38,069 nt of DNA from a virus: the IMG/VR virus record IMGVR_UViG_3300035698_023701, positions 1 to 38,069 of that record. One strand, written 5' to 3'. Each line of letters opens with the position of its first letter. The stretch's first letter is position 1. This document shows, in pieces, positions 111 through 15,961 of the stretch. The notes under the pieces were generated by a model. The model was given only the letters and a program-made list of their open reading frames with translations. It made no database searches and was not told the DNA's origin. The position numbers and the translations under genes are program-made.

Positions 111-489
111 TATCAGATCTCCATTGTTTTGCAGCATATTCCGGATACATTTCTTTAAGAGATGTAAATTGATTTACTGATATATTGAATTTCTTTATGA
201 TCTGGGAATACTCAAGTGAATCCTGAAGACCCACGTTTTCCTGGGTAATATTTCCAAGGTGCCGGTGTAGATTCTTTTCTATATTATCCAGCCTTTTATG
301 GATCTGGGATATACTTGAGAAATCTCCGGGCCCCATACATAACTGATAGAAACACAGTAATTCAGTCTGCGGGGTATTCTCATATTCGATAATTATACTG
401 ATACTCTTGGCTGATGGTCCGAACATCATCCAACCCAGTGCTGATTGTAGGATTAAATCCCCGGGGATTATATTGAGTTTATTGCTCAT
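100..489 (-). CDS. PGD-family paralog, 129 aa, unknown function
   Basis: The start ATG overlaps the upstream stop as ATGA, and AAGGA lies about 9 nt upstream. The N-terminus has IIPGDLILQ, then the beta strand KSISIIIEYE, as in the other tandem members. The C-terminal half differs: it is helical and charged (residues about 60-100), followed by HRHLGNITQENVGLQDSLEY, a divergent copy of the shared 'GN...hPhS..LKY' module. The protein has a 25-residue tail after the module that the others lack. It is probably a soluble cytoplasmic protein. No catalytic motif is visible. The family is unrecognised, and the call rests on similarity to its neighbours. Confidence 0.75.
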   Translation of the reverse strand: MSNKLNIIPGDLILQSALGWMMFGPSAKSISIIIEYENTPQTELLCFYQLCMGPGDFSSISQIHKRLDNIEKNLHRHLGNITQENVGLQDSLEYSQIIKKFNISVNQFTSLKEMYPEYAAKQWRSDNEQ

Positions 490-881
490 GATTTAATATC
501 CTTGAAAAACTTGACTGACTGAATGAACCCAGCGATAAGTTTTGGGTTATTCAGACATGTCTGCAGAGGTATCGTATTGTCCACAACATTACCAATATAC
601 TCAAGAGTATTGTTATGCGCAACAGCATGGTTAAGCCGTCCATGATCTACACCGATATCTCCAGTAGTTGTGTGTTTTCTTATTTTATCTTGATGATATA
701 ATTCGTATACCATCATTACAGTTGTGCCTTCAATTGCTTTGGTATAATTATAAGTAGGCGCGGGTCTTAATTCTATAATAATAATAAGAGCGGTTTGGTT
801 AGCCTTGCTCATACTAGCTGTTCGGTACCAGATCATATCGCCAGGTTTAAATACTTTTGGTATTTCTATATATCCTCTCAT
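486..881 (-). CDS. PGD-family paralog, 131 aa, unknown function
   Basis: The frame is open back to 962, but I take ATG 879-881 as the start. MRGYIEIPKVFKPGDMIW then aligns with the N-termini of the paralogs (MKYRDKIEDQIPLVFKPGDMIL), and the overlap with the upstream gene disappears. SD support is weak. The N-terminal domain has FKPGDMIW followed by the strand QTALIIIIELRP. The C-terminus has LEYIGNVVDNTIPLQTCL, then NNPKLIAGF, equivalent to the shared module. The stop TGA overlaps the next ATG. Function is unknown; cotranscription with the neighbours is almost certain from the overlaps. Confidence 0.75.
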   Translation of the reverse strand: MRGYIEIPKVFKPGDMIWYRTASMSKANQTALIIIIELRPAPTYNYTKAIEGTTVMMVYELYHQDKIRKHTTTGDIGVDHGRLNHAVAHNNTLEYIGNVVDNTIPLQTCLNNPKLIAGFIQSVKFFKDIKS

Positions 882-912
882 TAATACGGAGTCCAGATAT
901 CCGCTGCTTTCT

Positions 913-1269
913 TTATATTTTGGACAGGTCCCCGTCTTTAATCTGCCAGGTATGATATACATTTAGTATATTTCGATACTGAAGTTGATAAGAGAATCCT
1001 ATATTATTATTATTTACATTCCCGATATACATATCAGTATCTAATAATTTTATGTTTTTGTAATTGCATATTTGAACATCTTTTGGGTTATTAATATCTT
1101 TCCATAGTAATCCGCGTACTGGGTTATCAGAACTAAGAGTCATACTATTAAAGATAATTGGTTCTATAATTATTACTATAGAACTATTTGATTTCTCGGA
1201 GTCTATAAGCATATCTCCAGTATCAAGATATACTGGGACTTGATTAATAAGCATATCGCCATATTTCAA
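913..1269 (-). CDS. PGD-family paralog with TTG start, 118 aa
   Basis: The start codon is TTG (1267-1269), overlapping the upstream TGA as TTGA. GGAG lies about 7 nt upstream, and the start gives MKYGDMLINQVPVYLDTGDMLI, which lines up with the ATG-started paralog MKYRDKIEDQIPLVFKPGDMIL. These three facts together support the non-ATG start. The domain order matches the family: PGD-like segment (TGDMLI), strand SSIVIIIEP, GLLW motif near residue 58, then DMYIGNVNNNNIGFSYQLQY in the C-terminal module. There are no catalytic signatures. It is one of three closely related consecutive genes (913, 1266, 1677), which suggests local tandem duplication. Confidence 0.8.
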   Translation of the reverse strand: MKYGDMLINQVPVYLDTGDMLIDSEKSNSSIVIIIEPIIFNSMTLSSDNPVRGLLWKDINNPKDVQICNYKNIKLLDTDMYIGNVNNNNIGFSYQLQYRNILNVYHTWQIKDGDLSKI

Positions 1270-1643
1270 TATATATCTCCTGCACTTCCAAAGTACTTTT
1301 TATCAGCTTGTTTTTTAAGGTATATATTTATTATGTTTCTATATTTAAGTTGATAACTGAGAGGTATATTTTTATGGTGTATATTTCCAATGTATTGATC
1401 TGAATTAAATAAATCTAGGTGATGATAATATTCATAACGGAGTTGATCTGGAAGATAATTCCAGAGCAACCCTTCTATATCTATATTTGATATATTATTG
1501 TTAGTATTTACAATTTTTATATCTTTGGTTACAACTATTAAAGATATAGGATCATCACCGACATTTAGTATTAGATCTCCATCATAAATAACGAGAGGGT
1601 TTTGATTTTTAATCAGAGTCCTTGGAGTCATCATTGCTTCCAT
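1266..1643 (-). CDS. PGD-family paralog, 125 aa
   Basis: This close paralog of its two neighbours has NPLVIYDGDLIL, strand ISLIVVTKD, EGLLW, then DQYIGNIHHKNIPLSYQLKY followed by RNIINIYLKK. The first ATG (1641-1643) and a second four codons later are both possible, and neither has a strong SD. The stop TGA overlaps the TTG start of the next gene. Function is unknown. Charge and composition suggest a soluble protein. The high conservation of the C-terminal module against a diverged middle suggests the module is the functionally constrained, perhaps binding, part (inference). Confidence 0.75.
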   Translation of the reverse strand: MEAMMTPRTLIKNQNPLVIYDGDLILNVGDDPISLIVVTKDIKIVNTNNNISNIDIEGLLWNYLPDQLRYEYYHHLDLFNSDQYIGNIHHKNIPLSYQLKYRNIINIYLKKQADKKYFGSAGDIY

Positions 1644-1676
1644 TGTATAATAGATTGTGTGATTTGGTTATCTGTT

Positions 1677-2072
1677 TTATTCCTGTAGTTCGTTTTGTTT
1701 GTTGTACCATTTTAAATAGAAATTTATTACTTGTCGATACTTTATTTGGTAACTCATTGGTATGGTATTTTCATGTATATTACCTAAGTATATATCAGTT
1801 TCAATAACCCCTGATTGTGGGTTTTCACTTTCATCAGTACTTTCTTCCCATTTGATGCTTGATATTGGAAGTCTATTATTCATCCATAATATCCCGGGTA
1901 TCATTACTTCTAATGAATTAGGTTCCATTGCTGCCATTAGTCCTTTGGGTAGTATTTTATTATCAGTAGCTACTACAATAGAAGGCATCTTTAATGTTGT
2001 GGTTTCTAAAATCATATCACCTGGTTTAAAAACCAGGGGTATTTGATCTTCAATTTTATCTCTATATTTCAT
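1677..2072 (-). CDS. PGD-family paralog, 131 aa
   Basis: The protein starts MKYRDKIEDQIPLVFKPGDMIL, then has strand PSIVVATDNK, the PGILW motif, and a C-terminal DIYLGNIHENTIPMSYQIKY followed by RQVINFYLKW. It is the clearest representative of the family and the best query for a profile search. The start at ATG 2070-2072 is fixed by alignment with the TTG-started paralog; the SD is weak. It lies 33 nt upstream of the next paralog and only 7 nt after the preceding one. Function is unknown. Confidence 0.8.
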   Translation of the reverse strand: MKYRDKIEDQIPLVFKPGDMILETTTLKMPSIVVATDNKILPKGLMAAMEPNSLEVMIPGILWMNNRLPISSIKWEESTDESENPQSGVIETDIYLGNIHENTIPMSYQIKYRQVINFYLKWYNKQNELQE

Positions 2073-2716: not shown

Positions 2717-2745
2717 TTAAAAAGAGAACCCCAAAGGAAGGGGTT
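2717..2745 (-). terminator. Terminator after the 76-aa gene
   Basis: On the minus strand a perfect 6-bp stem AACCCC/GGGGTT (2727-2745) is followed by TCTCTTTTTAAATG. It overlaps the stop of gene 2744-2974. The GGTTATG extension seen at the other sites of this cluster is absent. Confidence 0.8.
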
Positions 2746-2974
2746 AACTAATGACGAGGCCTACTTTAGTTGTATCGTATCGAGAATCATCGGGGTGAAG
2801 ATCGGCGAAGTCCCCGGTATATGTGTATCTATTACTTGTTGGGGTTACTCGTTCTTCTTTTAGATAACGTAGACTATCACACCCGGAGTTGTCGTTCTGG
2901 ATGTATATTTTAGTTGTGCCGCCGTGCTTCTTTTTCATCTCTTTTAGTATTTTTATAGTATCGTCAATGTCCAT
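2744..2974 (-). CDS. Hypothetical protein, 76 aa
   Basis: A small soluble protein starting MDIDDTIKILKEMKKKHG. GAGAGG is placed 5 nt before the ATG, which overlaps the upstream stop as TAATG. It has an N-terminal amphipathic helix, then beta-rich polar sequence (TKIYIQNDNSGCDSLRY), and a VGLVIS tail. I do not recognise the family. The protein is the last gene of a two-gene unit ending in the hairpin at 2727-2745. Confidence 0.7.
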   Translation of the reverse strand: MDIDDTIKILKEMKKKHGGTTKIYIQNDNSGCDSLRYLKEERVTPTSNRYTYTGDFADLHPDDSRYDTTKVGLVIS

Positions 2975-3156
2975 TATGTCCTCTCTTTGTTTATTTTATG
3001 GGCATCTTCTCTGAATCTATCGAGAAACTTGGTTCTTTGTGTCGTCCCCATACAGTCAATAATGGATCGAGCTACTTTGTGGGAATACCCGTTCTTTTCT
3101 GATAGATATTTGGATGCCAAGAATCGGGCAGTTTTTGTTGTCTTGTTTTTACTCAT
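2974..3156 (-). CDS. Hypothetical basic protein, 60 aa
   Basis: The frame is open to a GTG at 3207, but ATG 3154-3156 (MSKNKTTKTARFLASKYL) is preferred, because upstream sequence falls in a hairpin-rich leader. The protein is strongly basic and helical (SHKVARSIIDCMGTTQRTKFLDRFRED), so nucleic-acid binding is possible but unproven. The stop overlaps the ATG of the next gene, which implies translational coupling. Confidence 0.65.
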   Translation of the reverse strand: MSKNKTTKTARFLASKYLSEKNGYSHKVARSIIDCMGTTQRTKFLDRFREDAHKINKERT

Positions 3157-3323
3157 AGGTATCTCTTTTTCATTACCGAAAAAGAGGAGCTTTCGCGAGT
3201 ACTTCACGAAAGCAGGTCTTCTTAGGAGCCCGAAGCAACTTCAGTATGTCTGAAGTTCAACTTGTTCTCTGCCTGTCCGGAAGGTACGCTGTCCTCTTTG
3301 GCACGATATTAGATATGCGTGTC
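3157..3323 (-). other. Hairpin-rich leader
   Basis: This non-coding interval, transcribed ahead of the 60-aa gene, holds three perfect stem-loops: 3164-3185 (8-bp TCTTTTTC/GAAAAAGA), 3189-3213 (7-bp GCTTTCG/CGAAAGC) and 3237-3257 (7-bp AACTTCA/TGAAGTT). No gene is convincing here. A structured 5' leader is the simplest reading. Confidence 0.55.
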
Positions 3324-3361
3324 CATAACCAAAAAAGAGAGAGCCCCCGTCATAATTGACG
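3324..3361 (-). terminator. Hairpin + TCTCTTTTTTGGTTATG box (site 2)
   Basis: Stem CGTCA/TGACG (3348-3361) is followed on the minus strand by GGGGGCTCTCTCTTTTTT, then GGTTATGGAC. The U-tract supports termination. The conserved GGTTATG is not explained by termination alone. Confidence 0.75.
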
Positions 3362-3392
3362 AGGACCCAGAGGAGAGATAGTAGTAGAGCGT

Positions 3393-3818
3393 TTATACGG
3401 TGGCTGATTCAGGGAAGTCTGCGTTACCGTTTGATGCTGCTGCTGAAGCTGTTTTTGCTTCATTGGCTTCTCGTTGTGCTTTTACCAGAGGATCTTCATA
3501 AGACTTAGGATCTCTGTATTGTACGAGTTGGGCACCACCATTCCGGCCTTTGAATGAGCTGGAACTGAGTTTGGTTAACTTCTTCTGATCAATGATACCT
3601 TCTTCAATACCACGAAGTCCAGCTTTCACTGAGATGGTTGCATCTGCAGGGGCTTCGGGAAGTGATTCCAGGACATCCTTTAGCTTCAATGCCGCGGTTC
3701 TTGGTCGAATCTCGAGGCTTCTGTCTTCGTTTTCAGAGATATCAAAGTTCTTGAGATTCTCTTCTGTTACTGCGCCTGTCTTCATGAAGAAAGCCAGATT
3801 GTCTTTTCGAATTACCAT
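3393..3818 (-). CDS. Hypothetical protein, 141 aa, low-complexity tail
   Basis: AGGAG lies 7 nt before the ATG. It starts MVIRKDNLAFFMKTGAV, followed by an acidic helical segment, a middle rich in Lys/Leu (LKLKDVLESLPEAP), a small Gly/Ser patch (SSSSFKGRNGGAQLVQYRDP) and an Ala-rich tail (EAKTASAAASNGNADF). It is soluble, with no membrane segment and no recognisable catalytic motif. It forms a single-gene unit between two terminator-box elements. A hairpin GGGTAT/ATACCC (3857-3872) lies in its leader. The composition resembles phage virion accessory or scaffold-like proteins, but that is only an impression. Confidence 0.65.
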   Translation of the reverse strand: MVIRKDNLAFFMKTGAVTEENLKNFDISENEDRSLEIRPRTAALKLKDVLESLPEAPADATISVKAGLRGIEEGIIDQKKLTKLSSSSFKGRNGGAQLVQYRDPKSYEDPLVKAQREANEAKTASAAASNGNADFPESATV

Positions 3819-3876
3819 GTGTGCACTCCTGTGAGTTAATATAGATTTAATTTACTGGGTATCTTTATACCCATCC

Positions 3877-3910
3877 CATAGCCAAAAAAGAGGGCCTTAC
3901 TCATCCCTCT
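3877..3910 (-). terminator. Hairpin + CTCTTTTTTGGCTATG box (site 3)
   Basis: Stem AGAGGG/CCCTCT (3889-3910) overlaps the stop of the membrane-protein gene. The minus strand continues CCTCTTTTTTGGCTATGGG. Confidence 0.75.
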
Positions 3911-4142
3911 GATCTTCTATATTCTCATTTGTAGTTTTAGGCTGGCGGAGTATATGTGGAATAACCACAATTATTCCCGCAATAATGAGGAAGAAGAAGT
4001 TTCCGGTGAGCAGGGCCGCAGTCATCACAATGAATGCAATGGCTGGGCCTGCTCCTGATTTATTGTTCGGTTCCACGTTTGAGATCTTTATCAACGATAG
4101 ACTGGATTTGAGCTTTATAAGCTTTCTCAGCATCTCCATCAT
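3897..4142 (-). CDS. Small membrane protein, up to 81 aa, start uncertain
   Basis: The long frame starts at 4142 and overlaps the upstream gene by 83 nt. An AGGAG inside the upstream stop region suggests a later start near codon 30-40, for example ATG before TAALLTGNFFF. The solid part is a hydrophobic stretch LLTGNFFFLIIAGIIVVIPHIL (one or two membrane helices), followed by a short charged tail ending EDQRDE. The N-terminal 25 residues of the long version may be a shadow of the other frame. Neighbouring genes also encode small membrane proteins, so this may be a membrane or lysis cassette, but no lysin is nearby. Confidence 0.6.
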   Translation of the reverse strand: MMEMLRKLIKLKSSLSLIKISNVEPNNKSGAGPAIAFIVMTAALLTGNFFFLIIAGIIVVIPHILRQPKTTNENIEDQRDE

Positions 4143-4308
4143 TGATCTGTTTGGCAGCGTTGAGTTTGATTTTTAGTTCTTCCAAACGTGATTGTTTTGA
4201 TGATACATGTACTTCAGGAATAGTGATAGTCGGCATCTTTGATCCAACCGTATTTATCCCATTGTCGATCATCTCACCGAGTCGTGCAAGAGCTGTTTTA
4301 GCACCCAT
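4060..4308 (-). CDS. Hypothetical helical protein, 82 aa
   Basis: GGAGG is placed about 7 nt before the ATG (MGAKTALARLGEMIDNG). Residues 20-40 are beta-like (MPTITIPEVHVSS), and the rest is a charged helix with heptad-like spacing (SRLEELKIKLNAAKQI...), consistent with a short coiled coil. It has no membrane segment. It sits between genes for small membrane proteins and may be their soluble partner, which is inference. Confidence 0.7.
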   Translation of the reverse strand: MGAKTALARLGEMIDNGINTVGSKMPTITIPEVHVSSKQSRLEELKIKLNAAKQINDGDAEKAYKAQIQSIVDKDLKRGTEQ

Positions 4309-4360
4309 TAGAGTACCTCCAACATAGATTTAGATAGCGGTGAATCGTGGAGAGGCCATC

Positions 4361-4397
4361 CATAACCAAAAAAGAGAAGCCCCCGGGCAAGGGACTT
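4361..4397 (-). terminator. Hairpin + TTCTCTTTTTTGGTTATG box (site 4)
   Basis: Imperfect stem AAGCCCC/GGGACTT (4377-4397) at the stop of gene 4396-4749, followed on the minus strand by TTCTCTTTTTTGGTTATGG. Confidence 0.75.
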
Positions 4398-4749
4398 AGG
4401 CTTTAGCTGTGTTGGCAGTTTTTGCCTTCTTCTCTTTCTTTCTCTTTGGTGGCATAATCATACAATGTGCATATTTATCTTTGGTATACATTGGAAGGAA
4501 TATTCCAACTAGAACAGATGATAATAGATTTGCCATACCTGCTACCATACCTTGACCTGTAAAATACCCTATCATATTTGATATAACAAGGTTGATTACG
4601 AATGCAACAATTGAGTTGTTGAACATTTTGAATAATCCTATTCTCAATGATGCGGGTTTGGTTTTTTCAAAGATCTTTAGTACATTTATCATAATTGATG
4701 TGGTTATAATGATATTTACCACTGTAAGTATTATTCCGGTTGTGAGCAT
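4396..4749 (-). CDS. Three-helix membrane protein, 117 aa, holin-like
   Basis: Hydrophobic segments lie at about residues 4-25, 46-66 and 69-90. They are followed by a Lys/Arg-rich cytoplasmic-type tail (PPKRKKEKKAK). The AGGAGG overlaps the stop of the upstream 40-aa membrane gene, so the two are coupled. Three helices with a basic tail resemble class I holins in topology, but no sequence motif proves it and no endolysin gene is adjacent. An alternative is a host-membrane takeover protein. Confidence 0.65.
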   Translation of the reverse strand: MLTTGIILTVVNIIITTSIMINVLKIFEKTKPASLRIGLFKMFNNSIVAFVINLVISNMIGYFTGQGMVAGMANLLSSVLVGIFLPMYTKDKYAHCMIMPPKRKKEKKAKTANTAKA

Positions 4750-4758
4750 GAGTGCCTC

Positions 4759-4881
4759 CTACTTACCACGTATTTTCTTCTTGATAACTTGACCAATTAT
4801 TGATAGTAAGGCTACGATACAGAATACGGTAAACCATATGCAAAGTAGATATATAATATTGTTTGCAATTTCTTGGTCCAT
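4759..4881 (-). CDS. Single-helix membrane peptide, 40 aa
   Basis: The ATG at 4879-4881 has AGGAGG 5 nt upstream. The protein begins MDQEIANN, followed by about 22 hydrophobic residues (IIYLLCIWFTVFC onward) and a basic end IKKKIRGK. Its TAG stop is embedded in the SD of the next gene. An acidic N-terminus, one helix and a basic C-terminus suggest an N-out inner-membrane peptide. It could be the partner of the three-helix protein encoded immediately downstream. Confidence 0.75.
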   Translation of the reverse strand: MDQEIANNIIYLLCIWFTVFCIVALLSIIGQVIKKKIRGK

Positions 4882-4904
4882 AACTACCTCCTGGTAATAT
4901 TAGT

Positions 4905-4947
4905 CATAGCCAAAAAAGAGAACCCCCGCCGGGTAGCAGGGATTCTC
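4905..4947 (-). terminator. Hairpin + TTCTCTTTTTTGGCTATG box (site 5)
   Basis: Stem GAGAACCC/GGGATTCTC (4918-4947), then TTTTTTGGCTATG on the minus strand, 24 nt before the start of the 40-aa gene. No coding region immediately precedes it on the minus strand. Confidence 0.7.
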
Positions 4948-5349
4948 AGAGACAACAACAAGAAGACTTAACATTATAGGAGATGTTATGAATGCTGCAA
5001 CAGCCGGCAGGATGCCCACCGACTGAGGGATACTCACTATAAACTATCGGGAGTCACTTTCCAGTAAAGGAGTATCTATGTTCACTGGGACTATTTCCAA
5101 TAGTTCATATATAAGATAACAGGAAGTTACTTCTCAATCAAGTAATCCCGTGAACGAAATTCCTGGATGGTATGATGACTTTTATTATGTTTGACTGATG
5201 GTCCATATTGACAATTTTATTGATATTTTCGTAGTGAATACTTTTGAATTTGATATCAACTTTAATGAATTTGGGTATGGTGAAAGCACATGTTCGGTTA
5301 ACTGGTTTGGTACCAAAGTTTATTATTATATGCGTCCACATAGAATTCT
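4948..5349. other. 400 nt without a convincing gene
   Basis: Short inverted repeats occur (for example ACTATTtccAATAGT and TTACTTctcaatcAAGTAA). On the plus strand two good SD-ATG pairs start in one frame (4988 and 5078), but it is broken by TGA, TAA and TGA before a 69-codon open stretch at 5198-5407. On the minus strand a 67-codon ORF (5138-5341) lacks a well-placed SD. This may be a decayed gene or a structured RNA. I annotate neither ORF. Confidence 0.4.
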
Positions 5350-5377
5350 AAAAAGGCTCCACTTCAGGGTGGGAGCC
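5350..5377 (-). terminator. Classic intrinsic terminator
   Basis: Stem GGCTCC/GGAGCC (5355-5377) is followed on the minus strand by TTTTT (5354-5350). It is a second terminator immediately after the box element of the outer-membrane-protein gene. Confidence 0.85.
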
Positions 5378-5382
5378 GGACC

Positions 5383-5416
5383 CATAACCAAAAAAGAGAG
5401 GCTATAATACCCCTCT
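5383..5416 (-). terminator. Hairpin + CTCTCTTTTTTGGTTATG box (site 6)
   Basis: Stem AGAGG/CCTCT (5397-5416) overlaps the stop of gene 5415-5888. It is followed on the minus strand by CTCTTTTTTGGTTATGGG and then by the separate terminator at 5350-5377. Confidence 0.75.
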
Positions 5417-5888
5417 AAAATTCATATCCAATAGTAAATTGAGTATGGTTTGGTTCGGAATACAATGTATATAAATCTTTAAAATCTTGAGTTGTACTTG
5501 AGTAGCCGATAAGATCTCTCTGAGGTGTTATTACGTGATGTGAACAGGTATGTTCAACACGAAAGTATACGTGTTTAACTATTTTGAGTTCACCACCAAT
5601 TGTATACTTATCTTGAAATGGTAATCCTGACACATTATCTGAATTTCCCATTTGAAACATGGTTTGCCATCCAGCATAAGGTCGAAGACTGATATAACTT
5701 TTGAACTTGAATAGGTAACCTACTTCTACATCAGTTTGATGATAGTCACCAACCTGGTCGTAAGTATATTCTAAATGTCCGGTAAGATTACCAGAAAACG
5801 CACCGAGTTTAAATTCGGCAAATGCTGGTATTGATACAGCAATAGACAGTAGTATTGTAAACATTAGTGTAATTTTGAATTTTCTCAT
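5415..5888 (-). CDS. Secreted outer-membrane beta-barrel-like protein, 157 aa
   Basis: A signal peptide is visible: MRKFK, then a hydrophobic core (LMFTILLSIAVSIPAFA) with an AFA-E cleavage site. The mature part has alternating polar/hydrophobic strands (GNLTGHLEYTYDQ, DVEVGYLFKF, ISLRPYAGWQ, YTIGGELKIV, VYFRVEHTC) and ends FTIGYEF. A terminal Phe is the hallmark of Gram-negative outer-membrane proteins recognised by BamA. Its size suits an 8-strand barrel. A phage gene of this kind may modify the host surface or block superinfection (compare lambda Lom by analogy only). AGGAG precedes the ATG. Confidence 0.8.
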   Translation of the reverse strand: MRKFKITLMFTILLSIAVSIPAFAEFKLGAFSGNLTGHLEYTYDQVGDYHQTDVEVGYLFKFKSYISLRPYAGWQTMFQMGNSDNVSGLPFQDKYTIGGELKIVKHVYFRVEHTCSHHVITPQRDLIGYSSTTQDFKDLYTLYSEPNHTQFTIGYEF

Positions 5889-5917
5889 AGTGCATCTCCT
5901 TTGATATTATTATACTT

Positions 5918-5948
5918 CATAACCAAAAAAGAGGACCCGGAGATCCTC
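5918..5948 (-). terminator. Hairpin + CCTCTTTTTTGGTTATG box (site 7)
   Basis: Stem GAGGA/TCCTC (5931-5948), then TTTTTTGGTTATGAAG on the minus strand, about 30 nt before the outer-membrane-protein start codon. Confidence 0.75.
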
Positions 5949-5958
5949 AGTATATCTT

Positions 5959-6210
5959 TTATGAGTAGATAATCGATATTGCAACTTCTTCACCTTTTAA
6001 CTTAGCAGCTTTGATCATTTGATACGCGGTTTGGAAGTTGAAACTCATGATTCTTCCTGGTAATGTTGTTGGAAGTAACAGATACGCTTGGCGCATGTGT
6101 ATTAATTTGGCAGCTTCATAAATTGATAGATTATCAATATCTATTGGTTTTCCATCAACCGTGAGTTCTTTGATAGCTCCATCTCTTCTTTTTATAACTG
6201 GTAATTTCAT
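5959..6210 (-). CDS. Hypothetical protein, 83 aa
   Basis: AGGAGG lies 6 nt before the ATG. The sequence MKLPVIKRRDGAIKELTVDG is followed by a helical part (NLSIYEAAKLIHMRQAYLLL) and another helix (FQTAYQMIKAAKL) ending in a strand VAISIIYS. It is soluble, mixed alpha/beta and of unknown family. It forms a single-gene unit bracketed by two box elements. Confidence 0.7.
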   Translation of the reverse strand: MKLPVIKRRDGAIKELTVDGKPIDIDNLSIYEAAKLIHMRQAYLLLPTTLPGRIMSFNFQTAYQMIKAAKLKGEEVAISIIYS

Positions 6211-6238
6211 GGAACACCTCCTAGTGTAATGTATATTC

Positions 6239-6273
6239 CATGACCCAAAAAGAGAGGCCGTTAGCGCACCTCT
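6239..6273 (-). terminator. Hairpin + CTCTCTTTTTGGGTCATG box (site 8)
   Basis: Stem AGAGG/CCTCT (6253-6273) at the stop of gene 6261-6446. The minus strand continues CTCTTTTTGGGTCATGG, a two-base variant of the box. Confidence 0.7.
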
Positions 6274-6446
6274 TTTACTATTTTCATCTTGAGATCAAAG
6301 AGCATTGATTTGCGTTCTTTGAGAGCTTTGACGATGTCCTTTTCCCAGGGTAGCTGTCGGAGATCTTCTATTTGACGGGTTACTTTACTGACTTCACACA
6401 TGAGAAGATATTCAAGTGTGCTAGTTTCTTTACCAGATAGTTTCAT
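6261..6446 (-). CDS. Hypothetical helical protein, 61 aa
   Basis: ATG 6444-6446 is chosen because GGAG is placed 6 nt upstream. Longer alternatives would start inside the box or SD region. The sequence MKLSGKETSTLEYLLMCEV continues into a charged helix (SKVTRQIEDLRQLPWEKDIVKALKERK) ending KIVKEVR. It is probably an all-helical, dimer-forming protein. Function is unknown. Confidence 0.7.
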   Translation of the reverse strand: MKLSGKETSTLEYLLMCEVSKVTRQIEDLRQLPWEKDIVKALKERKSMLFDLKMKIVKEVR

Positions 6447-6466
6447 GATATTCTCCATGTAGTATT

Positions 6467-6495
6467 CATAACTCAAAAAGAGAGCCCCGCAGGGC
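6467..6495 (-). terminator. Hairpin + CTCTCTTTTTGAGTTATG box (site 9)
   Basis: Stem GCCC/GGGC with tetraloop (6484-6495), directly after the stop of gene 6497-6799. Box variant TTTTTGAGTTATG on the minus strand. Confidence 0.7.
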
Positions 6496-6496
6496 C

Positions 6497-6799
6497 CTAG
6501 AAAAAGTTGGGTACAATGTAATCTGTTGAATTATTCATTGTTTCGATAGAATGTTCTTTGAGTTGTTCAAGCAGTGTATCAATATCTTTGGCAACTTGGT
6601 ATGGATGTAAATCTATTTTAGTAGATTCATCTTCTTTGTTTAACATGGTACATTCTATTGTAATAATAAGTTTTGATTCGTTCTTGAATTCGTAAGCTTT
6701 GAGTCCGAGAACTTTACACTCATGGTGTATTTTGTCGCCGAATATGCAGACAATACTATCTTCTGCAGTGAGCGGGTGCTGGATGTATTTATTACTCAT
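6497..6799 (-). CDS. Hypothetical protein, 100 aa
   Basis: The frame is open to 6943, but ATG 6797-6799 (MSNKYIQHPLTAEDSIVC) has AAGGA upstream and overlaps the end of the preceding gene by only 8 nt. A longer start would overlap it by 152 nt. The protein has beta-strand character (SIVCIFGDKIHHECKVLGL, SKLIITIECTMLN) followed by a helix (VAKDIDTLLEQLKEHSIE). It is unrecognised, and is coupled to the upstream membrane-anchored gene. Confidence 0.7.
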   Translation of the reverse strand: MSNKYIQHPLTAEDSIVCIFGDKIHHECKVLGLKAYEFKNESKLIITIECTMLNKEDESTKIDLHPYQVAKDIDTLLEQLKEHSIETMNNSTDYIVPNFF

Positions 6800-7046
6800 G
6801 AGATCTTCCTTGTAGATATTGATTAGGAACTGGGACATTGTATCGGTGTGCCAGTTTTCTGAGATCTTCCGTCCCGTAGGGAAGGTTTTCTTTATCCCAG
6901 GTTTGAATATGACAGACAAAGCCTTCATAATCTTGTTTCTCATCTGGATTAAAGTTCATTGGGGCTCCTTTGTCCGCTATTTTGCTGCCGATAATCATTC
7001 CTATAATACAGAGGGAACCGGCGAAAGCAGATATTAATATTTCCAT
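6792..7046 (-). CDS. N-terminally membrane-anchored protein, 84 aa
   Basis: AAGGAG lies 7 nt before the ATG. Residues 2-20 form one hydrophobic helix (EILISAFAGSLCIIGMIIG). The rest is a soluble tail with GFVCHIQTWDKENLPYG and DLRKLAHRYNVPVPN. The upstream half could also be a signal anchor. Function is unknown. Its end overlaps the next gene by 8 nt. Confidence 0.7.
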   Translation of the reverse strand: MEILISAFAGSLCIIGMIIGSKIADKGAPMNFNPDEKQDYEGFVCHIQTWDKENLPYGTEDLRKLAHRYNVPVPNQYLQGRSHE

Positions 7047-7095
7047 ATAAATCTCCTTCAGGGTATACCCTTAAATAATTTGATATTTTTCAGGT

Positions 7096-7130
7096 CATAA
7101 CCTTAAAAGAGAGCCCTTAGACTCTCTCTT
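7096..7130 (-). terminator. Hairpin + CTCTCTTTTAAGGTTATG box (site 10)
   Basis: Stem AAGAGAG/CTCTCTT (7107-7130) overlaps the stop of gene 7117-7380. The minus strand continues TTTTAAGGTTATGACC. GGTTATG is conserved although the T-run is shortened. Confidence 0.7.
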
Positions 7131-7380
7131 CAGGGTGTTTGATGTTCCAGAATATTATAATACTCCGGAGTGTTTTCTTATAACGTATGACATTTATCAT
7201 GCGTTTATTTTGTTGTACTGCTTCTTTATTGTTGGCTATTAGCCACGCTCCTTTTATTAGATCAGGATGCTGACTGTTAATAACTTTTAGAGCTTCTTGA
7301 CGGAGTCCCTTCAGGCTTGTAGCTTTGGGCCAGTCTTTAGGGTCTACGAGAGTTTTGTGTTGCAGATCGCCAATGATCAT
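7117..7380 (-). CDS. Hypothetical protein, 87 aa
   Basis: ATG 7378-7380 is chosen because GGAGG is placed about 6 nt upstream; the frame is open nine codons further. The sequence MIIGDLQHKTLVDPKDWPKA is followed by helices (LKGLRQEALKVINSQHP, GAWLIANNKEAVQQNKRMINVIRYKK). A hydrophobic patch near the end (SIIIFWNIKHP) may be a strand. The protein is basic and unrecognised, in a single-gene unit. Confidence 0.7.
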   Translation of the reverse strand: MIIGDLQHKTLVDPKDWPKATSLKGLRQEALKVINSQHPDLIKGAWLIANNKEAVQQNKRMINVIRYKKTLRSIIIFWNIKHPEERV

Positions 7381-7404
7381 AATATACCTCCGTGAGAGTA
7401 TTAT

Positions 7405-7438
7405 CATAACTTTAAAAGAGAAGACCCCGAAGGGCCTT
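7405..7438 (-). terminator. Hairpin + TTCTCTTTTAAAGTTATG box (site 11)
   Basis: GC-rich arms AAGACCC/GGGCCTT (7421-7438) around GAA, just after the stop of gene 7442-7624. Box variant TTTTAAAGTTATG. Confidence 0.7.
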
Positions 7439-7441
7439 TCT

Positions 7442-7624
7442 TTAGTGAATACTTTCTTTTATTTGGATAATCAGGGTCTGCATGGTACTTGCTATATTGC
7501 TAAGGGCAGATCCTTGTATTATTAAGGCAGCAGCAACAGTGGCAACGGTTGGGTCATTTGATTCCATAGATTCTGTTAATACTTCAATAGCTCTGTCAAG
7601 GTCCTGATTTGATATTTCAGCTAT
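7442..7624 (-). CDS. Hypothetical 60-aa protein with apparent ATA start
   Basis: This reading frame lacks ATG, GTG or TTG at its 5' end. GGAG (minus strand) is followed 9 nt later by ATA at 7622-7624, then AEISNQDLDRAIEVLTES. The product is a plausible two-helix protein (PTVATVAAALIIQGSALSN, MQTLIIQIKES), and its TAA stop sits at the usual distance from a terminator box. It fills an otherwise empty slot between two boxes. The alternatives are initiation at the internal ATG (codon 20) or a sequence change that destroyed the start. Confidence 0.55.
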   Translation of the reverse strand: MAEISNQDLDRAIEVLTESMESNDPTVATVAAALIIQGSALSNIASTMQTLIIQIKESIH

Positions 7625-7650
7625 AGTTATACACTCCTGTAATATGTATT

Positions 7651-7676
7651 CATTTCCAGAAAAGAGAAGAACTTCT
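7651..7676 (-). terminator. Hairpin + TTCTCTTTTCTGGAAATG box (site 12)
   Basis: Stem AGAAG/CTTCT (7665-7676), then TCTCTTTTCTGGAAATG on the minus strand, a diverged copy. It lies between gene 7685-7867 and the ATA-start gene. Confidence 0.6.
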
Positions 7677-7684
7677 GGGATCTT

Positions 7685-7867
7685 TCATTTTAATAATATC
7701 AGGGAACTCATTTCTATTTGCTTAATACTCACGATAGGAATAGTTCTTAAATCATGATACTGAGTAACTCCATCTATCCCCGTAAATGAGCGGGTAATGG
7801 TATGTATTTCGGGATCTATTATTTCTTCCTTTAATAGAACTTTAATAGTAGATTCACTTAATAGCAT
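7685..7867 (-). CDS. Hypothetical protein, 60 aa
   Basis: ATG 7865-7867 has GGAGG about 6 nt upstream; the frame is open 32 codons further without SD support. The sequence MLLSESTIKVLLKEEIIDPE is followed by beta-rich sequence (IHTITRSFTGIDGV, LRTIPIVSIKQIEM) ending SSLILLK. It is a single-gene unit. No family is recognised. Confidence 0.65.
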   Translation of the reverse strand: MLLSESTIKVLLKEEIIDPEIHTITRSFTGIDGVTQYHDLRTIPIVSIKQIEMSSLILLK

Positions 7868-7896
7868 AGAATACCTCCAAACTTGTTTAATATATT

Positions 7897-7914
7897 CATA
7901 ACCCATAAAGAGGG
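7897..7914 (-). promoter_or_regulatory. Box without hairpin: CCCTCTTTATGGGTTATG (site 13)
   Basis: A GGTTATG-type box lies about 30 nt upstream of gene 7685-7867. I see no preceding gene and no stem. A box without a gene to terminate argues that the conserved part has a role for the downstream gene. Confidence 0.5.
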
Positions 7915-8370
7915 AACACTCACGAATCATTTTATACTCTATTGCATAGGGGCTAGTAAGCAATACATTTATTAAGCTTCAAACAGGATACAGTAGAGGG
8001 CCAGTAATCGCGACATAGGATATATTTAGATTTATCAGCTCGTACCTTTAGATTCATCAATCTGCAATAGATTTATCAACTCGTATCCCCATAGATTTAT
8101 CAACTCGTACCCGGTTCGTACCACAACTTCGTGTAAACTTCTAAATGTTATGACACCGTTCTGGGTATTTATTGATCTTTTTGGTCTTCCTTGGTGTTTA
8201 TTGGGTCTTCAGAGGTCTTATGTCGGGCTTCTGCCGTAGGCGTGCAGGAATGAGGGGGAAGGGCTATGTGAAGTTTGTGGTAGATGTATCGGGTATATGT
8301 AGGCTTTAAGTAGGATAGGTGTCGGGTATATGGAGAGTTTTATCCAGTGGGTGATAGAAGTAGACTTATT
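7915..8370. other. 455-nt non-coding region with direct repeats
   Basis: I see no credible gene. The minus-strand ORF at 8218-8400 would start with a GTG inside a terminator stem. The left part contains the direct repeats at 8027-8112. The right part is G/T-rich on the plus strand. It is the longest gene-free stretch of the left cluster, and could be a replication origin or control region. Confidence 0.5.
8027..8112. repeat. Direct-repeat cluster (iteron-like)
   Basis: Three near-identical copies of TAGATTTATCAACTCGTACC (one or two differences each) start at 8027, 8068 and 8092. A degenerate copy starts at 8049 (TAGATTCATCAATCTGCA). Spacing is 19-24 nt, about two helical turns. A short CGTACC(CGGTT)CGTACC repeat follows the last copy. 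The arrangement fits a protein-binding iteron or operator array. Confidence 0.7.
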
Positions 8371-8404
8371 TCTTAAAAGTGAGAGCCCGAAGACTTTCAC
8401 TTTT
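8371..8404 (-). terminator. Terminator after the 25-codon ORF
   Basis: Perfect 8-bp stem AAAAGTGA/TCACTTTT (8375-8404) lies 12 nt after the stop of ORF 8416-8493. The minus strand ends in CACTTTTAAGAAATAAG, a strongly diverged relative of the box. Confidence 0.75.
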
Positions 8405-8415
8405 GGTACCTGGGA

Positions 8416-8493
8416 CTACTTGCCGAATCTGGATTTTGAGAACATTACTTCGCCACGCTTGTTTACACGGTAGTATTTTGTTGATTTGTTCAT
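8416..8493 (-). CDS. Tiny ORF, 25 aa, basic
   Basis: The product MNKSTKYYRVNKRGEVMFSK ends SRFGK. A GGGAG lies about 6 nt before the ATG, and a strong terminator follows the stop. The frame stays open upstream without a start codon (…NILFTDDGWEPT before the Met), so the real gene could be longer if a non-standard start or a lost start is involved. It is a small basic peptide of unknown role. Confidence 0.45.
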   Translation of the reverse strand: MNKSTKYYRVNKRGEVMFSKSRFGK

Positions 8494-8543
8494 GGTTGGC
8501 TCCCAGCCATCATCCGTGAATAGTATATTTGGGATTCCGTTCC

Positions 8544-8580
8544 CATGGCCAGGAAAGAGAAAGCCCCCGGCAGGGGACTT
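8544..8580 (-). terminator. Hairpin + TTTCTCTTTCCTGGCCATG box (site 14)
   Basis: Stem AAGCCCCC/GGGGACTT with one mismatch (8561-8580), 4 nt after the stop of gene 8584-9117. The box is diverged (CTCTTTCCTGGCCATGG). Confidence 0.7.
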
Positions 8581-8583
8581 ATG

Positions 8584-9117
8584 TTAGTGCAGATGGGAGC
8601 CATCATCTGGAGTATCCGGTTTATTCGGTTTATCTGAAGAATTAAGAATATCTTTTAGGGTTTCTTCTGCTTCGGCATCTTCCAGCTTTGCTGCCAGTTC
8701 TTCCGGTGTTATCTTGGATACCGTGGCACCTAGTAGTTTAGCCATTACTTTCAGCAACGGGGATGTATCGGTATCAAGACCCGCGATGCCTGCAGCGTGT
8801 TGGGCTTGATGAGTTTCAGTCATGAGAGCGCCCGTGAAGAGCCTCTGAATGATCGGGGATTCTTTACTGATATGTTCTACTATTTCAGCTAATTCCCATA
8901 TTTCATCAGGTCCACTAATTACGTTAATGGAAATATATTTCATCATTTCTTCGAATTCCACTTGAATCGGGAAACTGAGTATATGGTCTTCAGAGAGTCC
9001 AATACATCCATGATTAGTTTTGGTATCATGGTTCCATTTTCCAGTACATCCGGCGTTGTCCATCATCTGTTTGATATTTGCGATATGCTTCTTTATTGTT
9101 TCATCTATAATAAACAT
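8584..9117 (-). CDS. Hypothetical protein, 177 aa
   Basis: ATG 9115-9117 has GGAG 7 nt upstream; the frame is open 21 codons further. The N-terminus MFIIDETIKKHIANIKQMMDNAG is helical, followed by CTGKWNHDTKTNHGCIGLSED and a beta-like middle (HILSFPIQVEFEEMMKYISINVISGP). The C-terminal third is acidic, helical and low-complexity (EELAAKLEDAEAEETLKDIL), with a Pro/Asp tail ending DDGSHLH. No motif is recognised. The acidic tail resembles assembly or chaperone-type phage proteins, but this is weak. Confidence 0.65.
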   Translation of the reverse strand: MFIIDETIKKHIANIKQMMDNAGCTGKWNHDTKTNHGCIGLSEDHILSFPIQVEFEEMMKYISINVISGPDEIWELAEIVEHISKESPIIQRLFTGALMTETHQAQHAAGIAGLDTDTSPLLKVMAKLLGATVSKITPEELAAKLEDAEAEETLKDILNSSDKPNKPDTPDDGSHLH

Positions 9118-9237
9118 AAGTATTCTCCATAAAAATAGAATTATAAGAGCATGGGGGTTTAGGTCGTACCCCCGAACCAATTATTCCCGTCTGTTCCACC
9201 GGGGACTAGAAAGCCACCACTCACCATGAGTAGAGGT

Positions 9238-9303
9238 CATAGCCAAAAAAGAGAGGCCGGGTATCATCACATAGTTGGGTCTAGAGCCCTGCATGTATGA
9301 TAC
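9238..9303 (-). terminator. Long hairpin + CTCTCTTTTTTGGCTATG box (site 15)
   Basis: Arms GTATCAT (9261-9267) and ATGATAC (9297-9303) enclose the end of the 9267-9470 ORF. The GGCCTCTCTTTTTTGGCTATG box follows on the minus strand. Confidence 0.65.
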
Positions 9304-9470
9304 ATCTCTTTGGCCTTTTTCTCTTTACTACACCGGTTTCCTAGATCCTGTAGATTTAACTGGATCCAGTAAGCTGTTTTTCGTGGTACAGCTAACCATA
9401 AGTCATCATACTTCTTATACGCCAGTGATCCCAACCGCTGGTAAACCATTGAGAGGGATGCTTCCCACAC
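9267..9470 (-). CDS. Hypothetical basic protein, up to 67 aa, start unclear
   Basis: The stop at 9267 is placed next to a box element exactly as in neighbouring genes, which supports this frame. The first start in frame is GTG 9468-9470 (MWEASLSMVYQRLGSL) without an SD. The frame stays open upstream for 21 more codons (QAPYELRFNTCVPQV) with no ordinary start. The product is basic and helical (AYKKYDDLWLAVPRKTAYW, SKEKKAKEMYHTC). A programmed shift from the overlapping frame, or a non-standard start, is possible. Confidence 0.5.
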   Translation of the reverse strand: MWEASLSMVYQRLGSLAYKKYDDLWLAVPRKTAYWIQLNLQDLGNRCSKEKKAKEMYHTCRALDPTM

Positions 9471-9637
9471 CTGGGGAACGCACGTATTGAACCGAAGTTC
9501 GTATGGAGCTTGTATGATGCTTGATTATTTCCTGGAGACGAGCCTTGAATCTGGCGATCATATCTCCGGAGCTTCCATGTTTTAATCACTGTTCTGAGAA
9601 CGATGTAAGTAAGAGAACTGTGGTCGTAACCACCCAT
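9392..9637 (-). CDS. Overlapping alternative ORF, 81 aa
   Basis: This frame (MGGYDHSSLTYIVLRTVIK...) overlaps the previous ORF in another frame. The third frame is also open over 48 codons from an ATG preceded by GGAG (9556 downward). Only the N-terminal 40 codons of this ORF lie outside the overlap. It may be the true start of a gene whose 3' part is in the 9267 frame. Low confidence. Confidence 0.3.
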   Translation of the reverse strand: MGGYDHSSLTYIVLRTVIKTWKLRRYDRQIQGSSPGNNQASYKLHTNFGSIRAFPRCGKHPSQWFTSGWDHWRIRSMMTYG

Positions 9638-9922
9638 GCGAAACCGAAGTTATCACATCAGAGCAAAGTACACTCTTTCTCCACTGCCTGAAAAGAGAAG
9701 GGAGAGGACACAATAAACAATACCCAATAAAGAATCAATAAGAAAGCAGGATAGAGGGGAAGGGCTTTGGTCTTTGCCTTTGCCTTTGCTTTGGTCTTTT
9801 CTTAGCCTTTGAGCCTACAGGCTCCCAAAAATACCCCGATGAATCGGGCTGGCAGAGGACTTAGCCGCACATGCAAGACCCCCGAAAGGGTCAAGCACCT
9901 ATGGCGAAGGGGAAACTATCAA
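9638..9922 (-). other. 3' region of the RNAP-like gene with tandem hairpins
   Basis: No gene is seen. Three small hairpins follow the stop of the 814-aa gene in order: 9877-9892 (GACCC/GGGTC), 9835-9848 (CCCGA/TCGGG, followed on the minus strand by GTATTTTT) and 9811-9824 (GAGCC/GGCTC). The middle one is a good intrinsic terminator. An imperfect CTTTGCC repeat (about 9766-9800) and a degenerate box (9673-9697) complete the region. Confidence 0.65.
9835..9848 (-). terminator. Intrinsic terminator downstream of RNAP-like gene
   Basis: Stem CCCGA/TCGGG, then GTATTTTTGGG on the minus strand, the best of three consecutive hairpins after the gene. Confidence 0.7.
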
Positions 9923-12367
9923 CTACTCTTCAAGTGAAGGGCAGAAGATAGAAAGGTAGTACTTAGCTTCCCAAGAACCATTCTTATCTTTCTGGTAACG
10001 CTTTCCAGCATTCTTGTGAAACCCAGCAAGAAAGTCGTTCAGGTCATAGTCACCCAATATTTGCGGCAACTGAACCAGAAACTTTGTGGACCCGATAAGC
10101 TTCTTCGGGTTGGCACAGAGAATGTTAGTAGCTAAATACTTCAAGGCACCAGCTGCAACATCAACGTCTTTCATCTCTGTAAGCTTAAGGAACAAATCCT
10201 TTTGCTCATCAAAGATGGCATCACGCTCATCATTATCAGTAGCTTTACTAAGCTTACTGGTAATTTCTTTGTATGCTTTAACCAGACGTTTAGCCAAAAG
10301 AACAGCAGCCGGACGTCGGAGTTCCATACTTTCGAGCTGGGTACCCCATGTTGAAAGGATATAATTCCCAACAACATGTTTGGACAGATACTCGGGAGCA
10401 AGAACATCCTGAATTTCTGATACGCGCATGAAGCCACCACGATTAAGACCATGTTCTTTTAACCAGCCCTGCTCATGGGGAGCAAGAACTGAGAATACGT
10501 TCTTTAACCGCTGAACTCTTACGAATTCGGCAACTTCTCTCTCCTCATCTGTCAGTGGTCCCTTTGTTTCTCTGTAGTCCAGAGGATCTTCCACACGCTC
10601 ATAACTGGTAACAGCTATGTTGGGAAGAATGACATAAGGAATCACAGCAAGGAGAGCAAGACACAGTTTACCAAGACGACCGGTATACTCAGCACATTTA
10701 ATCCGCGCTTCATCAACCAGTTCGTGGTAACTGTCAAGATCCTCAAACTTACCACCAAGAAGGCGATAAATAGAAGGAGACTTCTCACCTGAGGGTTCAG
10801 GGAGAATAGTAGACTTCTTCGCATGATCAACTGCTGCCTGTACCTTAGAGATACAGTCAATGGTATCGGTGCTAAGAAGTGGAGTGCCTGTATTGGACAT
10901 GATGTACGAAATACTTACATCGTTGTCACAGAACGCAACCATAGTCTTACTGGCTACCTGCTTAATACAAGCGTCAAGGACAGAGAAGTCCCGGGTTTCT
11001 CCAATGATGGCATCTTCAACAGATCCACCAAAGGCCTTGTTCAGCTGGCTAACCCGCTTTTGATAGTGAGTCTTGCTGATAAATGGAAACTCTACCACTG
11101 TGATAGAATCTCCATCAGTGTCACCAACCAATAGATCCATGATCTCCTGGCTGACACGAAGTTCCCCATGCTGCACATATCCGACGACCTCACAAGGAGG
11201 GACGAATTCAGTGGCGATGGTAGGTGAACGGAACATACCTGGTATAAAAGAACCAACCGGGTATTTCTTTCTGTACTTAGAATTGACCATAACTTTCATT
11301 CCTTTAAGCTTACTGTCAGTGACAGCATAGACTTTACGGGAAAGAGTCGTTACTTTCAGATTGTTCTTAAGATACAGAACAGTCATTTTGGCCATATCTT
11401 GCGGGGTAATAGGAAGCCCTGCACGGTACAGACGCTCAACAGTGCTGGCAAATTCGTTGTTCTCCAGCCCATCGATTCCATCGCGGATATTAAAGATCCG
11501 GTCAAGAAGAGCATGTCCAGATGAGAGATCACCAGCAAGATTCATACCCATAGTTCGGATCATGCTAAGAAGTTCATTAAAACCCTTCTCAGTCATAACT
11601 TCTATCATACGGAATACTGCTTGCCATGGAACTTTCATCTGTTTAGATCTTCCCTTAGTTTCAAGAGAGGATCCTTGCTGATAGAGTGCTACCTGGACAA
11701 TAGAGCCCACGGTAATACCCTTCAGTTTAAAGCCATTGGAGTTAATGTAAAAATCTACATTAGCTTCTCTGACTTTCGCGGGAACATCCCACTTCTCAGC
11801 AGGTATGGCCATTCCCTTGAATATAGCAGCGGCATGAGACATTTGGCCTTTGCCATCAAGTTCATAACCAGTCATCTGGAATGGAGAGAACCGCTCCAGG
11901 TGCTGAGCAAGGAGGCTTCCAGCTACATAGTAGCCATGGCCATCCTCAGGACCATCAATGATCTTGACAGTCACAATGCTTAGAAATTGGCTCGTTTCTT
12001 GCAGCCTAAATCCAAGCTTAGCTCTACGGCAAGGATCGCCATAGGTGGAGTCCATACCCTGACCGTTGTCAGCAAATATGAGTTCCAAGTCCAGATAGTT
12101 ACCGTATCTGGTCCTGCGAAGCTCAGAAGAATTCCGTACACAAGGTACAAGTTTCTTATTAAGCTTCTGCTCCATAGCACGGACAGTATGGGTAAGTTCT
12201 GAAACCTTAACCATACCAGTGCTAGCTACGACAAGTCCTCTATACATGGACCCTAACCCACGTAGAGGCTTATCAGTATCCTCAACTGTATCACCAGTAA
12301 GGAAATCAACTACCGGTACTGTGGTACCAGTAATAAGACGGGTAAAACGTTTAGTGTTCTCTTTCAT
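9923..12367 (-). CDS. Putative single-polypeptide RNA polymerase with DxDGD motif, 814 aa
   Basis: ATG 12365-12367 has GGAGG about 7 nt upstream. Residues 380-420 hold RSPTIATEF..., a strand CEVVGYVQ, then LLVGDTDGDSITVVEF. The order 'R-x-P-T ... hydrophobic strand ... DxDGD ... V' is that of the second double-psi beta barrel, which carries the metal-binding aspartates in cellular RNA polymerase beta' (NADFDGD), in YonO and in QDE-1-type enzymes. Candidate Mg-binding Asp residues are D416, D418 and D420. Residues about 208-250 (GFKLKGITVGSIVQV, then KGRSKQMKVPWQAV) could be the first barrel with its conserved lysines. The length fits YonO-like enzymes. The rest is helical and not recognised. 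The assignment is from motif order only. A replication or repair protein with a chance acidic motif is the alternative. Confidence 0.6.
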   Translation of the reverse strand: MKENTKRFTRLITGTTVPVVDFLTGDTVEDTDKPLRGLGSMYRGLVVASTGMVKVSELTHTVRAMEQKLNKKLVPCVRNSSELRRTRYGNYLDLELIFADNGQGMDSTYGDPCRRAKLGFRLQETSQFLSIVTVKIIDGPEDGHGYYVAGSLLAQHLERFSPFQMTGYELDGKGQMSHAAAIFKGMAIPAEKWDVPAKVREANVDFYINSNGFKLKGITVGSIVQVALYQQGSSLETKGRSKQMKVPWQAVFRMIEVMTEKGFNELLSMIRTMGMNLAGDLSSGHALLDRIFNIRDGIDGLENNEFASTVERLYRAGLPITPQDMAKMTVLYLKNNLKVTTLSRKVYAVTDSKLKGMKVMVNSKYRKKYPVGSFIPGMFRSPTIATEFVPPCEVVGYVQHGELRVSQEIMDLLVGDTDGDSITVVEFPFISKTHYQKRVSQLNKAFGGSVEDAIIGETRDFSVLDACIKQVASKTMVAFCDNDVSISYIMSNTGTPLLSTDTIDCISKVQAAVDHAKKSTILPEPSGEKSPSIYRLLGGKFEDLDSYHELVDEARIKCAEYTGRLGKLCLALLAVIPYVILPNIAVTSYERVEDPLDYRETKGPLTDEEREVAEFVRVQRLKNVFSVLAPHEQGWLKEHGLNRGGFMRVSEIQDVLAPEYLSKHVVGNYILSTWGTQLESMELRRPAAVLLAKRLVKAYKEITSKLSKATDNDERDAIFDEQKDLFLKLTEMKDVDVAAGALKYLATNILCANPKKLIGSTKFLVQLPQILGDYDLNDFLAGFHKNAGKRYQKDKNGSWEAKYYLSIFCPSLEE

Positions 12368-12372
12368 GAGAG

Positions 12373-12389
12373 CACCTCCTATTAATGTT
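12373..12389 (-). promoter_or_regulatory. Shared leader/SD element 1
   Basis: AACATTAATAGGAGGTG lies just before the start of the RNAP-like gene. Nearly the same 17 nt precede the next two minus-strand genes, so the conservation reaches beyond the SD itself. Confidence 0.65.
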
Positions 12390-12412
12390 GTATGCGAAGT
12401 ACGCATATAGAG

Positions 12413-12445: not shown

Positions 12446-12483
12446 TACTATCTGAGCACTGCTATGTTGAGCTATTACTACCT

Positions 12484-15290: not shown

Positions 15291-15316
15291 AAACGTGGAA
15301 TGGGGAAAATTCTGTT

Positions 15317-15949: not shown

Positions 15950-15961
15950 CCGGAGAAACAA

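Follow-up and report, generated by a model that had tools for sequence, protein, structure and literature searches.

The window analyzed here is the whole of IMG/VR record IMGVR_UViG_3300035698_023701, a 38,069-nt fragment of the genome of an uncultured large phage. Between 3.17 and 9.70 kb, the minus strand carries an array of genes punctuated by sixteen copies, one of them degenerate, of a 17-bp box, CTCTTT-N3-GG-NN-ATG-R, most of them preceded by a hairpin; directly upstream of the array lies a gene for an 837-residue protein. Our best explanation as a whole, to which we give a probability of roughly 0.6, is that the boxes belong to an array of fused terminator–promoter units read by this neighbor, a candidate YonO-type RNA polymerase (RNAP).

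The box array

The box copies align without gaps, with their CTCTTT and GGTTATG parts at constant spacing. They are listed in the order in which the minus strand is read; unless a score is given, each was found by both position weight matrix (PWM) and pattern matching.

9681–9697, minus: box 1, degenerate (CTCTTTTCAGGCAGTGG), without hairpin (just −2.5 kcal/mol); PWM 15.7 bits
9237–9253, minus: box 2, without clear hairpin
8543–8559, minus: box 3
7896–7912, minus: box 4, neither hairpin nor gene directly before it
7650–7666, minus: box 5, without stable hairpin
7404–7420, minus: box 6, AG for GG; PWM 20.4 bits
7095–7111, minus: box 7
6466–6482, minus: box 8, AG for GG; PWM 23.8 bits
6238–6254, minus: box 9
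5917–5933, minus: box 10
5382–5398, minus: box 11, before a structured putative non-coding unit
4904–4920, minus: box 12
4360–4376, minus: box 13
3876–3892, minus: box 14
3323–3339, minus: box 15, before a structured putative non-coding unit
3170–3186, minus: box 16

A search for CTCTTTTTTGGTTATG with up to three mismatches returned 14 matches against 0.78 expected, all on the minus strand between 3.17 and 9.25 kb, and the strict pattern CTCTTTNNNGGNNATGR gave 13 matches against 0.00 expected from 100 dinucleotide shuffles. When the matrix was scored leave-one-out, the fifteen regular sites reached 16–27 bits; the top score outside the box sites, anywhere in the window, was 8.0 bits. An earlier note on this sequence had described about fifteen sites—a hairpin and T-run followed by GGTTATG on the minus strand—and proposed a genome-wide motif search. 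All fifteen are present, the one it placed near 9690 lying at 9681–9697, and the search across the window both adds a copy that the note had missed (box 16) and confines the box to one strand and one region. Its conserved GGTTATG holds at the core, but the conserved unit also takes in CTCTTT, and some sites depart from GGTTATG itself: A replaces the first G of GG in boxes 8 and 6 (at 6467 and 7405), and T−4 is C, giving GGCTATG or GGCCATG, in boxes 14, 12, 3, and 2 (at 3877, 4905, 8544, and 9238). Ten positions (C−15, T−14, C−13, T−12, T−11, T−10, G−5, A−2, T−1, and G0) are invariant in all fifteen aligned boxes, and the base after ATG, R+1, is a purine in every one of them; outside −20 to +1, conservation is at background level.

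As expected of a phage-specific promoter, then, the box is a fixed-spacing motif that stands before transcription units and nowhere else in the window. We considered and rejected an ordinary sigma-70 promoter: no hexamers of the TTGACA-N16–18-TATAAT type align to the box, and sigma-70-like sites are not enriched between 2.5 and 13.4 kb (34 against 27.8 expected).

Terminators and their separation from the box

In that same interval, terminator-like sites number 30 against 7.8 expected, and the strongest of them lie at boxes. Hairpins with a folding energy of −8 kcal/mol or lower stand at 12 of the 16 boxes (control mean −5.1, standard deviation 3.2; 20% of controls at or below −8), and the anatomy of an intrinsic terminator—a GC-rich hairpin passing directly into a T-run, after a gene—is found at 12 of the 16 and again at 2727–2745. 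The features below come from a terminator scan, except where folding is named.

9835–9848, minus: terminator that follows the polymerase gene, without a box
8561–8580, minus: terminator hairpin before box 3
7421–7438, minus: terminator hairpin before box 6
7105–7130, minus: hairpin overlapping box 7 (CTCTTTT) with its 3' arm; folding
6481–6498, minus: terminator hairpin before box 8
6248–6276, minus: hairpin overlapping box 9 with its 3' arm; folding
5931–5948, minus: terminator hairpin before box 10
5395–5416, minus: terminator hairpin before box 11
4918–4947, minus: terminator hairpin before box 12
4377–4397, minus: terminator hairpin before box 13
3889–3910, minus: hairpin AGAGGG...CCCTCT before box 14, its loop holding the stop codon of the preceding gene; folding
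3341–3368, minus: terminator hairpin before box 15
3189–3213, minus: terminator hairpin before box 16
2727–2745, minus: final terminator in the array, with CTCTTTTTAAATG after it and no box; a terminator-only control, absent among PWM matches above 6 bits

Hairpins had been ascribed to the sites generally; this stands for twelve, but boxes 5, 4, 2, and 1 (at 7651, 7897, 9238, and 9682) have none of that stability, and box 4, as the earlier note had observed, has no gene directly before it either. The note was also right that the hairpins differ while the box stays constant: the loops vary, as does the distance from loop to box (21–30 nt). Because boxes occur without hairpins and terminators (2727–2745 and 9835–9848) without boxes, hairpin and box are two separate modules. 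The variable loops and spacing led us to reject an N4-like hairpin promoter, and together with the four hairpin-free sites they set the element apart from the hairpin promoter candidate of Bacillus phage 0305phi8-36, discussed below.

Could the box belong to a family of terminators as nothing but their conserved tail, without a part in starting transcripts? The hairpins at twelve sites would be accounted for, but we hold this to be very improbable, given four boxes that have no hairpin, two terminators that have no box, and an invariant G-NN-ATG-R beyond the T-run that plays no part in intrinsic termination. CTCT, likewise, is invariant whether it lies inside the stem (boxes 11 and 7, at 5383 and 7096) or beyond it (boxes 15 and 3, at 3324 and 8544), and is thus kept for more than termination.

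Units downstream of the boxes

Eleven boxes are followed, 15–59 nt downstream, by a start codon with a Shine–Dalgarno sequence, much as the 20–60 nt of the earlier note would have it. That spacing does not describe boxes 15 and 11 (at 3324 and 5383), which precede apparently non-coding units, or boxes 2 and 1 (at 9238 and 9682), which precede long leaders or units of unclear nature. The two non-coding candidates are:

4912–5384, minus: putative structured unit of 473 nt, from box 11 as far as the box 12 terminator; fold z-score −4.2
3178–3325, minus: putative non-coding transcript of 148 nt between boxes 15 and 16; fold z-score −3.5

Rfam and tRNA scans returned nothing above threshold, including no Rfam match for either unit. 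Since two boxes precede such apparently non-coding, unusually stable units, the start of transcription fits the box better than a translation signal does. A role in RNA or translation—a leader reading frame opening at the box ATG, a processing site, or a protein-binding site—might explain why that ATG is invariant and why, at 7405, it shares the reading frame of the gene. We nonetheless judge such a role highly unlikely: the genes have Shine–Dalgarno sequences and starts of their own farther on, and not all units are genes. The leader-peptide version was rejected outright, as the box ATG lacks a Shine–Dalgarno sequence and the leader frames end at widely differing lengths. Nor are the boxes hitch-hiking on a recent duplication of gene cassettes, an explanation we also rejected, because the array genes are not mutually paralogous; the flanks of the boxes do not align. 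Taken together, the separable modules, the fixed spacing, the purine after ATG, the mixture of coding and non-coding units, and the poor fit to sigma-70 lend good support to the combined terminator and promoter that the earlier note had suggested, and the box is likely to act as a promoter.

Two array members merit separate mention. The open frame after box 5 (about 7441–7630, minus strand) has a Shine–Dalgarno sequence and no nearby ATG, GTG, or TTG, with ATA as its would-be start. The gene at 5415–5888 (minus strand) has no family match; read from the sequence, its product resembles a signal peptide followed by an outer-membrane barrel protein, pointing, if so, to a Gram-negative host.

The 837-residue neighbor

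Directly upstream of the array lies:

9923–12436, minus: 837-residue gene, candidate YonO-type single-chain two-barrel RNAP, by three ordered motifs

The motifs are, in order, DGKGQM (DGxGxM), RSPTI (RSPxI), and DTDGD (DxDGD), the last of these, at residues 439–443, corresponding to the DxDGD catalytic triad of DPBB-A. A pattern built with YonO and the 0305phi8-36 RNAP in view—DGxGx[MLI], RxPx[IL], and DxDGD in that order—finds only those two proteins and the window's open reading frame (ORF) in 1.07 million residues of ORFs, and turns up in shuffled versions of the 837-residue protein at a rate of 1 in 40,000. The protein has no match in Pfam or PHROG, and no close relatives emerged from tblastn in phages and plasmids, from scans of viral and genome contigs, or from 52 related records. 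Accepted two-barrel RNAP families often have just the DxDxD region in common (PMC10770324). We regard the protein as a probable, though not proven, two-barrel RNAP.

Several findings weigh against the reading favored here. The profile similarity of the protein is not significant (E = 1.3 by hmmsearch and 0.13 by HHalign, the alignment lying on RSP...DxDGD), nor is that found by BLAST, and the RNAP assignment rests on the motifs; a single-sequence AlphaFold model, with a pLDDT of 35, was too poor for a fold search. The polymerase gene itself and the window's structural genes carry no box. The box was not found in any relative (the strict pattern has 0 matches in the 52 related-phage records); among viral contigs, the exact box occurs at 37 loci, as a single chance-like copy each. 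The record is, moreover, a fragment, and further boxes and polymerases may lie outside it.

The lack of boxes at polymerase and structural genes fits a promoter class serving one gene set. It can also be taken to favor a different reader, namely the host RNAP, redirected to the box by a phage sigma-like factor or activator. Sigma factor genes do occur in a relative, Bacillus phage KLEB27-3, and some genes in the window apparently depend on host-type promoters such as TTGACT-N17-TATACT at 17415–17443. Yet the box is unlike −35 and −10 elements, sigma-70-like sites are not enriched around it, and no sigma factor was recognized among the window ORFs searched, most of which have no family match of any kind; we consider redirection of the host enzyme unlikely.

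Before the polymerase gene, at 12360–12510 on the minus strand, there are hairpins followed by CTCTATA, which is like the box in its first half only and could be another promoter class.

Comparison with other phages

The phage has no close relatives in the collections. Its portal and terminase find matches of 22–28% identity in Moorella phage MTATph1, KLEB27-3, Acinetobacter phage ME3, and about 320 viral contigs, among them a 218,948-bp record that we take to be 0305phi8-36, the 14 motif copies in that record equaling the published number. By portal and terminase, the window phage and 0305phi8-36 would be distant members of one lineage, far apart from each other. For 0305phi8-36, an RNAi-type (YonO/QDE-like, orf99) RNAP gene has been described along with 14 copies of a 21-bp candidate phage-specific promoter and small single-gene, "host takeover" transcripts at 202–208 kb (Hardies 2007, PMC2147016); Iyer and colleagues count it among YonO-like enzymes (PMC7824862). 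Within the record, the polymerase ORF (208.0–211.8 kb) lies directly upstream of the 202–208 kb region and on the same strand, and across 110–219 kb the 14 strict motif copies are found on one strand only, that of the polymerase and the single-gene region. The motif is a hairpin with an invariant GTTCGCAC loop followed at constant distance by T-N-N-T-G-T-A, and covariation is perfect at the three stem pairs that vary: over 15 aligned copies, 100% of the cells are paired and 26 double changes occur, matched in 0 of 500 shuffles.

The likeness to our window is one of layout as well as element: small one-gene units share a strand and follow immediately on a polymerase gene, and a repeated phage-only element, with a T-rich stretch that ends in TG (T-N-W-T-G), stands beside a hairpin. 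The differences are equally clear. In 0305phi8-36 the hairpin, at fixed spacing, is kept with its loop and covarying stem, whereas in the window a linear 17-bp box is fixed and the hairpins vary or are absent; the 0305phi8-36 motif is spread over 144–207 kb, whereas the box keeps to 6.5 kb. About five GTATCGCACACGTTATGT-like copies, distinct from the 14-copy motif, lie upstream of the polymerase gene in 0305phi8-36, at 212085–212231 of the record.

From the three ordered motifs and from this matching layout, the assignment of the boxes to the adjacent 837-residue candidate polymerase gains support. The earlier note had ventured such service; its proposal is strengthened to this extent, with the reading enzyme and the start site still matters of inference, and we place it slightly above even odds. 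The SPbeta enzyme YonO offers a parallel in the protein itself, a single-chain two-barrel RNAP of 839 residues (against 837 for the candidate) with the same three motifs. YonO, however, transcribes a single late operon from a single start upstream of yonK (PMC5467207), unlike a sixteen-box array.

The Thermus phage P23-45, which has a virion RNAP (gp96 vRNAP) and a non-virion one (gp64 nvRNAP), provides a parallel in promoter arrangement. From ChIP-seq and mapped 5' ends, its AT-rich promoters have been attributed to a fusion of a two-barrel RNAP with the tape measure protein (PMC10770324). In the 50 kb examined, 15 of 16 copies of TTATTCYTTTATG (up to two mismatches) share one strand within the early cluster, where many follow a hairpin directly, and from their position we infer that TTATTCYTTTATG is the published AT-rich motif. 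Like the window, P23-45 has a dense one-strand array of small genes, with the nvRNAP gene in the cluster, and a T-rich promoter ending in (T)ATG-R for each gene, often directly after a hairpin. It differs in consensus, in that its ATG is mostly the start codon of the gene, and in the assignment of the promoters to the tail-fused enzyme.

The last difference raises the prospect that the boxes are read by an injected virion RNAP housed in a tail protein, as gp96 is, with the 837-residue enzyme serving other genes. Such a reader would suit the T-rich-then-TATG-R look shared with the early cluster of P23-45, and a candidate signature, RYPTI...DYDGD, exists in a 2434-residue structural protein of KLEB27-3. 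The stand-alone enzyme of 0305phi8-36 speaks against it, however, as does the want of any such tail protein in the 38-kb fragment, most tail genes lying outside, and we think it rather improbable. The KLEB27-3 protein (gp034, 35003–42307) is itself a possible tail-borne two-barrel RNAP.

For the start site, a further precedent comes from the late promoters of phiKZ, read by its nvRNAP. These consist of TATG with G at +1, and TATG overlaps the start site as in the arrangement we envisage (PMC4666361, PMC7618050). They differ in having only 4–5 conserved bp and a multisubunit enzyme, and the cited portions of the two papers report no fusion to terminators. By analogy with P23-45 and phiKZ, TATG-R is a plausible start site in the window too. 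The host-takeover module of SPO1, as far as it is summarized in PMC2147016, is likewise made of small genes with short transcripts first used after infection.

A model of the array

On the explanation we favor, the region from 2.7 to 9.7 kb would comprise about sixteen short transcription units, mostly of one gene each, every one opened by a box and closed by a hairpin and T-run. The T-run of a terminator usually runs into, and partly overlaps, the next box, such that a junction of about 45 nt would end one transcript and begin another. Initiation at or just past TATG-R would yield leaders of 15–60 nt. The reading enzyme would most likely be the phage's own YonO-type two-barrel RNAP, and the array is probably an early module of the host-takeover type.

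In the proposed terminator–promoter junction, parts that are ordinary by themselves are fused in an unusual way. Several phages are known to have YonO-type single-chain relatives of cellular RNAPs, and the YonO paper left undecided which promoter sequence that enzyme uses and whether it requires helper factors (PMC5467207). With sixteen natural variants of the box next to such a gene, the window offers a candidate promoter, short and mutable, and a candidate enzyme to go with it, both open to testing in vitro; if the model is true, arrays of insulated genes could also be built with the fused junction as a compact part. More tentatively, and with appreciable doubt, we suggest that, apart from the 0305phi8-36 candidate, the box may be the first multi-copy promoter to be recognized for a stand-alone YonO-type polymerase, with a single T-run serving as both terminator tail and promoter core. 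The polymerases of this lineage might then evolve hairpin-linked promoters in which one phage places recognition in the hairpin and another in the linear sequence beside it.

Other features of the window

The host-type promoter at 17415–17443 is a good one and stands before a small plus-strand gene; by this promoter, part of the phage seems to depend on the host polymerase. The large terminase gene (26865–29903) is split by an intein with a LAGLIDADG domain, and the KLEB27-3 terminase has a long insert in roughly the same position. Two tandem paralogous gene families with no assigned function occupy 486–2072 (minus strand) and 13837–17418 (plus strand), and members of the plus-strand family have a C-terminal PF-S/N-xK motif in common.

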